From an uncultured Nocardioidaceae bacterium (GTDB taxonomy: Bacteria > Actinomycetota > Actinomycetes > Propionibacteriales > Nocardioidaceae): DNA of 43,708 nt. The position numbers and the translations under genes are program-made. Shown piece by piece: positions 28,348 through 43,708 of this stretch; within the stretch, counting starts at the first letter, position 1; each line of letters starts with the position of its first letter. The notes below the pieces were generated by a model. The model had not been told where the DNA came from and ran no database searches. It worked only from the letters and a program-made list of their open reading frames with translations. The stretch spans positions 1 to 43,708 of the forward strand of contig CADCUK010000108.1 in NCBI GenBank assembly GCA_902805865.1. Direction: 5' to 3'.

Positions 28348-28426
28348 GGTACGCCGAGTCGGCGCGTCCTGCCGCCAGGATGCGCCGACTCGACGGCTGA
28401 GCCACGCCAGGATGCGCCGACTCGAC
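28321..28426. terminator. Concentric palindromic repeat (A1 A2 B1 B2, period 32), probable bidirectional terminator
   Basis: gccgag(c/t)cggcgcgtcctgccgcc at 28321-28344 and 28353-28376; gccaggatgcgccgactcgac at 28374-28394 and 28406-28426; cgagtcggcgcgtcc/ggatgcgccgactcg stem 28355-28369/28378-28392. Confidence 0.75.
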
Positions 28427-34138: not shown

Positions 34139-34156
34139 GCTGACCGCACGAGCCAC

Positions 34157-34187
34157 GACAGCCCCCCAAGCCGCTTGGGGGGCTGTC
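34157..34187 (+). terminator. Rho-independent-like terminator of carD
   Basis: Perfect 14-bp stem gacagccccccaag-ccg-cttggggggctgtc, then gccttt. Confidence 0.85.
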
Positions 34188-34221
34188 GCCTTTCCCGGGG
34201 CCGTTCGGCCGTGCGGTCGTG

Positions 34222-40293: not shown

Positions 40294-41439
40294 ATGCGGC
40301 GTTCGATCTACGACGAGGACCACGAGGCGTTCCGGTCGTCGGTCCGGGAGTTCCTGGACCGTCAGGTGAAGCCGCAGCTCGAGGAGCACGTCGCGAACAA
40401 GCAGATCCCGCGTGAGTTCTGGATCGAGGCCGGCAAGCAGGGGTTCCTCGGCCTCGAGGTCCCCGAGCAGTACGGCGGCTCCGAAGCCGGTGACTACCGG
40501 TTCAACTCGGTGCTGACCGAGGAGCTGGCCAAGGTCAACATGGCCCTCCCGTCGTGCGTCGGCATCCACGCCGACATCTGCGCGCCGTACCTGGTGCACC
40601 TCACCACCGACGAGCAGAAGCAGCGGTGGCTGCCGGGCTTCTGCAGCGGCGAGATCCTCACCGCGATCGGCATGACCGAGCCGTCCGGCGGTTCCGACCT
40701 CGCGGCGCTGAAGACGACCGCGGTCAAGGACGGCGACGACTACATTCTCAACGGGTCGAAGACGTTCATCACCAACGGATACTCCGCGGACCTCATCATC
40801 GTCGCCGCGCGCACCGCGCCGGAGAAGAAGGCCCGCGGCATCACGCTGTTCGGGGTCGAGGCGACGATGGAGGGCTTCTCCCGGGGTCGCAAGCTCGACA
40901 AGGCCGGCCAGGACGAGTCCGACACCGCCGAGCTGTTCTTCGAGGACATGCGGGTGCCGGCCGCGAACATCATCGGCGAGCTCGACAGCGGCTTCATCCA
41001 CATGATGACGTGGCTGCCGCAGGAGCGCCTCGGTGCCGCGGTGACGAACATCCAGCACGCCGCGCAGATCCTCGAGGAGACGATCCAGTACACGAAGGAC
41101 CGCAAGGCCTTCGGCCAGTCGATCGGCTCCTTCCAGCACAACAAGTTCCTGATGGCCGAGCTGGTGACGAAGGTCGAGGCGACGCAGACCTACGTCGACC
41201 AGGCGGTCCTCGCCCACACCGAGGGCAAGCTCGACCCGATCGGCGCCGCGAAGGTGAAGTGGTTCTCCTCCGAGGTGCAGAACGAGGTCATCGACCACTG
41301 CGTGCAGCTCTACGGCGGCTACGGCTACATGAACGAGTACCGCGTGACCCGTGCCTGGCGCGACGCCCGCGTGACGAAGATCTGGGCCGGCTCGAACGAG
41401 ATCATGAAGGAGCTCATCGGCCGCGACCTCGGCCTCTAG
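40294..41439 (+). CDS. Acyl-CoA dehydrogenase family protein
   Basis: 381 aa; AIGMTEPSGGSDLAALKTTA, LNGSKTFITNGYSADL, QLYGGYGYMNEYRVTRAWRDARVTKIWAGSNEIMKELIGRDL. Confidence 0.97.
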   Translation: MRRSIYDEDHEAFRSSVREFLDRQVKPQLEEHVANKQIPREFWIEAGKQGFLGLEVPEQYGGSEAGDYRFNSVLTEELAKVNMALPSCVGIHADICAPYLVHLTTDEQKQRWLPGFCSGEILTAIGMTEPSGGSDLAALKTTAVKDGDDYILNGSKTFITNGYSADLIIVAARTAPEKKARGITLFGVEATMEGFSRGRKLDKAGQDESDTAELFFEDMRVPAANIIGELDSGFIHMMTWLPQERLGAAVTNIQHAAQILEETIQYTKDRKAFGQSIGSFQHNKFLMAELVTKVEATQTYVDQAVLAHTEGKLDPIGAAKVKWFSSEVQNEVIDHCVQLYGGYGYMNEYRVTRAWRDARVTKIWAGSNEIMKELIGRDLGL

Positions 41440-41449
41440 GCCGGTTGCC

Positions 41450-41557
41450 GGTTTCCCAAGGTATGTCGGCCTGTTGTCACTGCCCACGGGTCACATCCCG
41501 TGGGCAGTGACAATTCATCGTGGGGAGTGCCAGTTTGCCGACATCCCTTGGGAAACC
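41450..41557. repeat. Nested palindromic element (outer 21-bp arms, inner 17-bp arms); REPIN/MITE-like or bidirectional terminator
   Basis: Outer ggtttcccaaggtatgtcggc 41450-41470 / gccgacatcccttgggaaacc 41537-41557 (20/21); inner ttgtcactgcccacggg 41474-41490 / cccgtgggcagtgacaa 41497-41513 (17/17), 6-nt loop tcacat. Confidence 0.85.
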
Positions 41558-41660: not shown

Positions 41661-42404
41661 TCAGAACGTCAGCTCGGCCGCCTCGAGGAGTGACGGGCCG
41701 TACAAGGTGAGCAGCCGGCCACTGACCAGTCGCGTCGCCGTCCGCGCGAAGGCTTCGGGTCCGTCCTCGGCGGTGAACACGTATGGCTCGTCCGGCAGCA
41801 GCACGAGGTCGGCGCCGCTCGCGTCGAGCACCTCGACGGTGACCTTCGGGTAGCGGTCCGCGTGGCCGGCGTACACGTTCTCGGCGCCGAGCCGGCGCAG
41901 CAGGTCGCCGGTGAACGTCGCGCGGCCCACGACCATCCACGGGTCGCGCCAGATCGGCACCGCGACCCGGGTCCGTACGGCGGGCAGGGGCCCGTCCCAC
42001 GCAGCGACCGCCTGGTCGAGCCACGGCGGCCTTCCCCATCGCAGGCCCTCGTCGAAGAGCCGGCTCATCGACTCGAGCGCCTGGGGCACGGTCTCGATGA
42101 CTGTCACCCAGACAAGAATCCCGGCCTCGCGCATCCGGCGGACGTCGAGCTCGCGGTTCTCCTCCTGGTTGACGACGACGAGGTCCGGGCGGAGCTCGAC
42201 GATCTTCTTGACGTCGGGGTTCTTGGTGCCCCGGACCCGGGCGACGTCCAGGTCGGCCGGGTGCGTGCACCAGTCGGTGGCCCCGACGATCGCCTCCGGA
42301 CGGGTGGCGACGAGGGCCTCGGTCAGCGAGGGGACCAGCGAGACCACCCGGTGGGCCGGACCGGTCACGTCGACGGCGGCGCCGAGGTCGTCGCGCAGCA
42401 CCAC
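41661..42404 (-). CDS. Helical backbone metal receptor (BtuF/periplasmic-binding fold), no signal peptide
   Basis: RVVSLVPSLTEALVATRPEAIVGATDWCTHPADLDVARVRGTKNPDVKKIVELRPDLVVVNQEENRELDVRRMREAGILVWV; start GTG 42404 or 42401. Confidence 0.9.
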   Translation of the reverse strand: MVLRDDLGAAVDVTGPAHRVVSLVPSLTEALVATRPEAIVGATDWCTHPADLDVARVRGTKNPDVKKIVELRPDLVVVNQEENRELDVRRMREAGILVWVTVIETVPQALESMSRLFDEGLRWGRPPWLDQAVAAWDGPLPAVRTRVAVPIWRDPWMVVGRATFTGDLLRRLGAENVYAGHADRYPKVTVEVLDASGADLVLLPDEPYVFTAEDGPEAFARTATRLVSGRLLTLYGPSLLEAAELTF

Positions 42405-42408
42405 GGCC

Positions 42409-43708
42409 TCAGCTCCGTCCCGACAGGGGCAGGACCAGCCGTGCATCCCCGTCGTCGGTGACCCGCACCGGGACACCCCAGTCCTGCTGGTGCAGGTGGC
42501 AAGCGGCTCCCTCCCCGCCCTCGGCATCGCAGGACGCCGCGCGCGCAGCGACGTGGAGCACGCCGTCGCCGACCGCAGGGTCGATCGTCACGGTCCGCAC
42601 CAGCGACGTGCCGCGGCCCTCGCCCGAGGCGAGCAGTGCCTGGGGGGTCGCGGAGACGAGCAGCTGCGACGGCGGTCCGAAGCGGTCGTCGACCTTCTGC
42701 CCCGGCGGCGGAGTGAAGTCGATGACGATCTCGACCTCACCGCCACGGAGCTCGGTCGGTGGTCGCTGGGTCCGGTGCGCGAAGCCGTCGACCCGGGCGG
42801 CAGCTCCGAGCGGCACCCGAGTGAGGCGGTGGGCTGCGGACTCGACGACGAGCAGGTGGTCACCGTCGACGACCGCGCCGCTGGGCTCGGCGAGCCCGGT
42901 CGCCAGCGTCGTGACCTCACCCCCGGCCACCCGGCGCACCGCGCCGTTGTAGGTGTCGCAGACCGCGACCGACCCGTCGGGCAGCACGGTGACGCCGAGC
43001 GGGTGCTGCATCAGCGCCTGCTCGGCGGGTCCGTCGCGGAAGCCGAAGTCGAAGAGCCCGGTGCCGACGAGGGACCGGACCGCTCCGTCCGCCACCACCC
43101 GCACGCTCGAGGTCTCGCTGTCCGCCAGCCACAGCCGCTCACCGTCGGCAGCCAAGCCGGAGGTCTGCGCGAACCACGCTTCCCGCAGCGGTCCGTCGAC
43201 GATCCCCTCGTTCGTCGTCCCGGCGGTGACCTCGGCCGCTCCGGAGCTCGGGTCGAACGTCCACAGCTGGTGGATGCCGGCCATCGCCACCCAGACACGG
43301 TCCTGCCACCACGCCACGTCCCACGGACTGGAGAGCGTCCCTTCCGACCCCGGCGTGCCGGGGAAGAGCTGACGGCCGTCGCCGGCGAGCGTGCGCACCG
43401 ACCCGTCGGAGAGCCGCACCCCGCGCAGCGCGTGGTTCACGGTGTCGGCGACCACGACGTCGTAGCCGACGGTCGCCGCGACGTCAGGAGGCAGCAGGCA
43501 CAGGCCGTTGGGCTCGGCGAACCTCGCGACCCCGGCCGCCCCGTCGACCAGGCCGCGGTCGCCCGAGCCGACGCGCCGCACGACGGTCTCGGCGTCCGCA
43601 GCGAGCTCGACGAGGCTGTGGTGGCCCGCGTCGGCCACCAGGAAGCCACCGCCGGGAAGGGCCACGAGCTTGGCCGGGAAGCGGAGGTCGCCCTCCATGA
43701 CCGCCGGC
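42409..43708 (-). CDS. NHL repeat protein, probably the C-terminal part of a thioredoxin-like/NHL protein (5' end outside window)
   Basis: LRFPAKLVALPGGGFLVADAGHHSLVELAADAETVVRRVGSGDRGLVDGAAGVARFAEPNGL and further NHL blades; frame open to within 10 nt of the window edge, first ATG (43698) may be internal. Confidence 0.88.
   Translation of the reverse strand, partial: PAVMEGDLRFPAKLVALPGGGFLVADAGHHSLVELAADAETVVRRVGSGDRGLVDGAAGVARFAEPNGLCLLPPDVAATVGYDVVVADTVNHALRGVRLSDGSVRTLAGDGRQLFPGTPGSEGTLSSPWDVAWWQDRVWVAMAGIHQLWTFDPSSGAAEVTAGTTNEGIVDGPLREAWFAQTSGLAADGERLWLADSETSSVRVVADGAVRSLVGTGLFDFGFRDGPAEQALMQHPLGVTVLPDGSVAVCDTYNGAVRRVAGGEVTTLATGLAEPSGAVVDGDHLLVVESAAHRLTRVPLGAAARVDGFAHRTQRPPTELRGGEVEIVIDFTPPPGQKVDDRFGPPSQLLVSATPQALLASGEGRGTSLVRTVTIDPAVGDGVLHVAARAASCDAEGGEGAACHLHQQDWGVPVRVTDDGDARLVLPLSGRS

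Follow-up and report, generated by a model that had tools for sequence, protein, structure and literature searches.

The 108-bp nested palindrome at positions 41450–41557 of the window (the whole stretch of 43,708 nucleotides analyzed here, from an uncultured Nocardioidaceae bacterium) is probably a solo, non-autonomous copy of a small REPIN-like palindromic element that a nuclease partner would mobilize, a reading to which we give a probability of about 75%.

Sequence inspection and an inverted-repeat search gave this gene-less element, to which no strand is assigned, the layout A-B-loop-b-b′-a. The outer arm A (GGTTTCCCAAGGTATGTCGGC; 41450–41470, + strand) is a terminal arm of the genus type, as judged by the comparison of copies, and is followed by the inner arms B (41474–41490, +) and b (41497–41513, −), 17 bp each and 100% complementary, which form the central hairpin around a 6-nt loop (41491–41496). 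Then come a degenerate third inner half-arm, b′ (CGTGGGGAGTGCCAGTTT; 41519–41536, −), and the outer arm a (GCCGACATCCCTTGGGAAACC; 41537–41557, −), complementary to A at 20 of 21 positions. The 21-bp outer arms, the perfect 17-bp inner hairpin and the 6-nt loop described in a first-pass annotation of this DNA were all recovered, as was the position of the element between convergent genes and directly after an acyl-CoA dehydrogenase gene (40294–41439, +; stop TAG at 41437–41439). It starts 10 nt past this stop, and the convergent ORF on its 3′ side (41661–42527, −) encodes 288 aa, putatively a BtuF-type periplasmic binding protein-like product by eye, with 72.95% identity to the neighbor at the locus in G003, a closed 4.19-Mb genome from the same genus. 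Within the search distance used, the window has no longer inverted repeat than this element, whose predicted fold reaches −81.4 kcal/mol; shuffled sequences average −45.5 (z = −9.35, 0/200 shuffles). A T-tract or U-tract after the stem-loop was looked for and is absent, as had been reported, and an Rfam search with the element gave no match near any gathering score.

The palindrome is not single-copy. The window's own genome (G000), a MAG of 3.09 Mb in 215 contigs that is 82% complete, holds at least six copies, and G003 holds about 24, full or partial; its complete copies are mostly exactly 88 bp long, with one of 81 bp. A covariance model (CM) trained on the copies of these two genomes found matches in 60 of the 150 family genomes, which spread over 12 of 26 genera; it is tuned to one arm type, and CM-negative genomes may still carry elements. 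An independent pattern allowing 73–103 bp matched 32 genomes, nearly always at 88 bp and in a few cases at 86 or 87 bp, while its reversed control gave no matches. Named matches came from Aeromicrobium, Marmoricola, Nocardioides, Mumia, Microlunatus and related MAGs, which places the family in Nocardioidaceae and extends the element to other Propionibacteriales. Unrelated taxa accounted for a minority of the 67 matching stretches. Besides the 88-bp standard, larger classes of 107–110 and 119–120 bp carry an extra half-arm like the window copy, and shortened A-B-b-b′ copies were also found. A helical phasing of these size classes was considered and dropped, as their spread is too wide.

A standard copy consists of A (1–16), a spacer, B (28–40), an 8-nt loop, b (49–61), a second spacer and a (73–88). 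In a gap-free alignment of copies from 20 genomes, the long-stem pairs (n = 29) were formed in 93.8% of cases and 25 of the 29 showed two-sided changes (0/500 shuffles), so that the covariation of arms for which the first-pass annotation had proposed a check is present. The outer arm is a hairpin by itself in several species (GGTTTACCACGGTCCCGTGGTAAACC), and a three-hairpin fold was also supported (76.5% paired, 0/500). An ambiguity between hairpin and clover folding has been described for REPINs (PMC3116915).

Outer arms are 93–98% conserved among the copies of each of three genomes (G120, G002 and G063), spacers and loops less so, and 80% conserved in G003 with its truncated copies included. 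Between species, the arm sequences differ strongly. Some loci are nevertheless occupied in several genera, or across Aeromicrobium species with different arms, and the 3′ end of the acyl-CoA dehydrogenase gene bears an element in three species of one genus (G000, G002 and G003). Arm identity within a genome combined with change between species at shared loci calls for a trans-acting, sequence-specific factor or for gene conversion; selection on structure would not be sufficient.

The copies are almost all intergenic, as anticipated in the first-pass annotation. Among 110 copies from ten genomes, whose gene context was called with a home-made gene finder, 52 lay between convergent genes, 52 between tandem genes, five between divergent genes and one inside a gene, usually at 1–30 bp from a stop codon. 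The corresponding numbers for comparison gaps without an element, which stem from an earlier and cruder gene calling, were 31 convergent, 109 tandem and 64 divergent. Empty sites were found in close relatives: the copies at G109:838165 and G109:2626622 have empty counterparts in G112, the copy at G112:2359429 has one in G109, and that of Marmoricola Leaf446 (G092:C1:1024877) has one in G074, while a fifth compared locus is occupied in both relatives. Presence or absence between close relatives is compatible with both gain and loss; for G109:2626622, which is filled in the more distant G063, loss in G112 is favored. The junctions are imprecise at the four loci, and the intergenic flanks have diverged too far for a target-site duplication to be called. 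The elements are apparently mobile. Many loci are old and common to several genera, which runs counter to a mobile reading.

Comparison of the neighbors of the copies revealed one gene lying between two elements in two genera. Its product is about 310 aa long, with an AbiEi_4 winged helix in 28 of 30 homologs, an invariant D-x10-E-F-D-G-x2-K motif and a nearly invariant E-K-x-R-E-D motif. The C-terminus of the clade members had no Pfam match, and distant paralogs, reached via the family profile, match DUF559 (3e-6) and REase_MTES_1575 (5e-6) near the C-terminus. Through its linkage to these paralogs, the bracketed protein is likely a PD-(D/E)XK-type nuclease. A single-sequence AlphaFold model of one homolog had a pLDDT of 33, a PDB profile search of the family returned only the Bax1 endonuclease (E 0.7), and no relatives were found in the viral contigs searched.

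The bracketing recurs throughout this family, in the order A-B-b-b′ ... gene ... b′-B-b-a. In a first set, all 31 inspected nuclease genes were flanked by inverted palindromic repeats (three pairs being weak, with scores of 13–16), and the gene's own left and right repeats ranked as the best pair of 31 in 30 cases. The same held for 16 of 17 clade members in a second set, which has one gene in common with the first, and for 22 of 24 in a third, including 8 of 10 from another actinobacterial family. Of the complete ORFs in the loci retrieved, 23 of 29 in the nuclease family and 1 of 360 others had a bracketing score of at least 18. The 'degraded direct copy of the inner motif' noticed in the first-pass annotation is indeed a degenerate third half-arm, but not the product of random decay: b′ is the module that normally adjoins the nuclease gene in full-length elements, and it recurs in many 107–120-bp copies of other species.

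Solo copies resemble the repeats of the nuclease genes in the same genome. In 20 of 25 genomes, the repeats of the genome's own nuclease were the best match of 39 for the solo arms, and in two more they came just behind those of a sister species; in G054, G031 and G117, the solo arms did not fit the single nuclease sampled. G063 harbors two nucleases, and each of its two solo types matches one of them. In G003, the solo copies match a frameshifted nuclease gene (3805390–3806315), and the intact one at 999692 bears repeats of the G002 solo type. Protein similarity and repeat similarity were correlated (rho 0.27, 0/2000, Mantel test), and a clade member was present in 55 of 60 CM-positive versus 52 of 90 CM-negative genomes (p = 3e-6). 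The best match for the genus-type arms of the window copy was to the repeats of the frameshifted G003 nuclease, and the window's own assembly, at 82% completeness, contained a partial distant paralog (E 1e-16) but no clade member. The copies of this genome may hence be orphans, or their gene may be part of the 18% that the assembly lacks.

We propose that a full-length element consists of a single gene, encoding an AbiEi-type winged helix and a DUF559/MTES_1575-type restriction-endonuclease-like domain, between inverted terminal repeats, each comprising an outer arm, a central hairpin and a half-arm. Solo copies would arise when the stretch between both palindromic ends is deleted or when only the ends transpose, and would be either of the 88-bp A-B-b-a form or of a 107–120-bp form that keeps b′, such as the window copy. 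The winged helix of the nuclease would most likely recognize in trans those arms that belong to its own family, and the nuclease would cut or copy hairpin DNA, with the arms staying identical within a genome and drifting between species together with the nuclease. Copies would be moved to, or replaced in, the short spaces past stop codons, where they would do the least harm, and could double there as transcript-end hairpins in both directions. The bidirectional termination suggested in the first-pass annotation would fit this placement, which is often between convergent genes, but the U-tract of an intrinsic terminator is missing.

A simpler view holds that the copies are nothing more than bidirectional Rho-independent-like terminators or mRNA 3′-end stabilizers, their structure selected locus by locus with no mobile history. 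The very stable hairpin, the strong covariation, the occupation of some loci across genera and the position 1–30 bp past stops, often filling the entire gap between convergent genes, all agree with it. Yet the 16-nt arms are nearly identical at 10–24 loci per genome while spacers and loops vary, the same repeats bracket one gene family, empty sites exist and a U-tract is absent, which makes this view distinctly improbable; a structured RNA or terminator as the sole explanation was rejected on the within-genome arm identity. Sequence invariance within a genome would be explained if the arms, with their 26-bp dyads, were chromosomal binding sites of the nuclease-family protein, which would act as a regulator, a nucleoid organizer or a part of a defense or toxin–antitoxin system, the repeats then being an immobile regulon or self-tag. 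The AbiEi winged helix of the protein and the concerted change at conserved loci point the same way. We consider this rather unlikely, since the sites lie at 3′ ends and not at promoters, their inverted bracketing on both sides of the gene, at many gene locations, resembles the ends of an element, and they are present or absent between close relatives.

Among mobile alternatives, a true REPIN moved by a RAYT (HUH/Y1) transposase would account for the paired inverted hairpins, the extragenic position and the alternative hairpin and clover folds, as in REPINs (PMC3116915). It is extremely improbable, as a RAYT/Y1 search (PF01797) of the 150 family genomes found Y1_Tnp in three only (G007, G014 and G147), none of which has CM-detected elements. 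The TIR-like ends, the absence of a gene and the length of about 100 bp would also suit an ordinary MITE that shares its terminal repeats with a DDE-type insertion sequence, and the nuclease gene would then be an unrelated passenger. This is very unlikely, given that the bracketed gene belongs to the same family in more than 30 genomes and that no other gene type is bracketed save one chance case (1/360).

ERIC and NEMIS, of enterobacteria and neisseriae, are likewise imperfect palindromes of roughly 100 bp in transcribed intergenic space, and we know of no partner gene for ERIC. The assignment to a REPIN/MITE-type element in the first-pass annotation stands in its broad sense: copies are dispersed, terminal palindromes surround a putative mobility gene and close relatives have empty sites. 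As in REPINs, two inverted palindromes form a hairpin and are scattered extragenically, and as in MITEs, a short non-coding element has terminal inverted repeats; a REPIN in the strict sense does not apply, RAYT/Y1 being absent from every examined genome with the element. The likeness to REPIN/REPtron-RAYT (TnpA-REP) systems (PMC3116915, PMC3733652, PMC8266576) covers the short, inverted extragenic palindromes scattered through a genome, the cognate enzyme gene with these repeats on its flanks, species-specific repeat sequences, several enzymes per genome each with its own repeat type, and the choice between hairpin and clover folding. However, the partner here is an AbiEi winged-helix and DUF559/REase-like protein instead of an HUH/Y1 transposase, the ends of the aligned copies lack a GTAG tag, the nested architecture with its central hairpin is fixed at 88–120 bp, and copies number in the tens, not hundreds. 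TIRtrons also have a single gene between terminal inverted repeats that form a dispersed repeat family, but their enzyme, TIRYT, is an IS200/IS605-type tyrosine transposase (PMC3733652).

The domains of the bracketed gene family are those of AbiEi proteins and, probably, of DUF559/REase_MTES_1575 proteins. In the literature searched, with subscription literature and preprints outside its scope, we found no work linking DUF559/AbiEi proteins to palindromic repeats and none on REPs of Nocardioides. With the chances evenly balanced, the elements may represent a class of mobile element that is new among prokaryotes and widespread in Actinomycetia, in which one winged-helix PD-(D/E)XK-type nuclease gene with nested palindromic ends would seed and homogenize gene-less repeats at transcript ends, playing the part of REPIN/RAYT without being homologous to it. 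REP-type repeats have been described mainly in RAYT-bearing bacteria, and families that lack a partner enzyme, such as CGTC REPs and ERIC, are unexplained. That another enzyme family, unrelated to RAYT, is consistently bracketed by palindromic repeats of its own suggests that such a partnership arose more than once. The pairing would also provide a candidate function for the abundant unannotated AbiEi/DUF559 genes of actinobacteria, and the spread and uniformity of the repeats become testable questions.

Several loci deserve separate mention. Two nuclease genes are frame-split, L053 (G003:C1:3805390-3806315) and L395 (G126:C1:3223976-3224883), and are either pseudogenes or sequencing errors. 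Distant AbiEi/DUF559-type paralogs (L396, L398, L399, L400 and L401) are bracketed by inverted repeats of their own, different from those described above, and the pairing of repeat and nuclease may extend to the whole protein family. Homologs from another actinobacterial family (f21; L442-L452) have long AATGATCACGTTCACCAC-type terminal repeats common to several species, which indicates a repeat family outside Nocardioidaceae. The sole non-nuclease case among the 360 other ORFs is a gene of Aeromicrobium sp. Leaf350 (L161, 616-1540), MutM/Fpg-like by its look, with elements on both sides.

The window holds two further palindromes. A second palindromic repeat at 28352–28424 (CGCCGAGTCGGCGCGTCCTG/CAGGATGCGCCGACTCGACG plus a third copy), with convergent ORFs on either side, apparently belongs to another repeat family; a GAGTCGGCGC hairpin similar to it lies 3′ of the same acyl-CoA dehydrogenase gene in genome G032. 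At 34156–34188, CGACAGCCCCCCAAGC and GCTTGGGGGGCTGTCG form a perfect 16-bp hairpin with a 1-nt loop.
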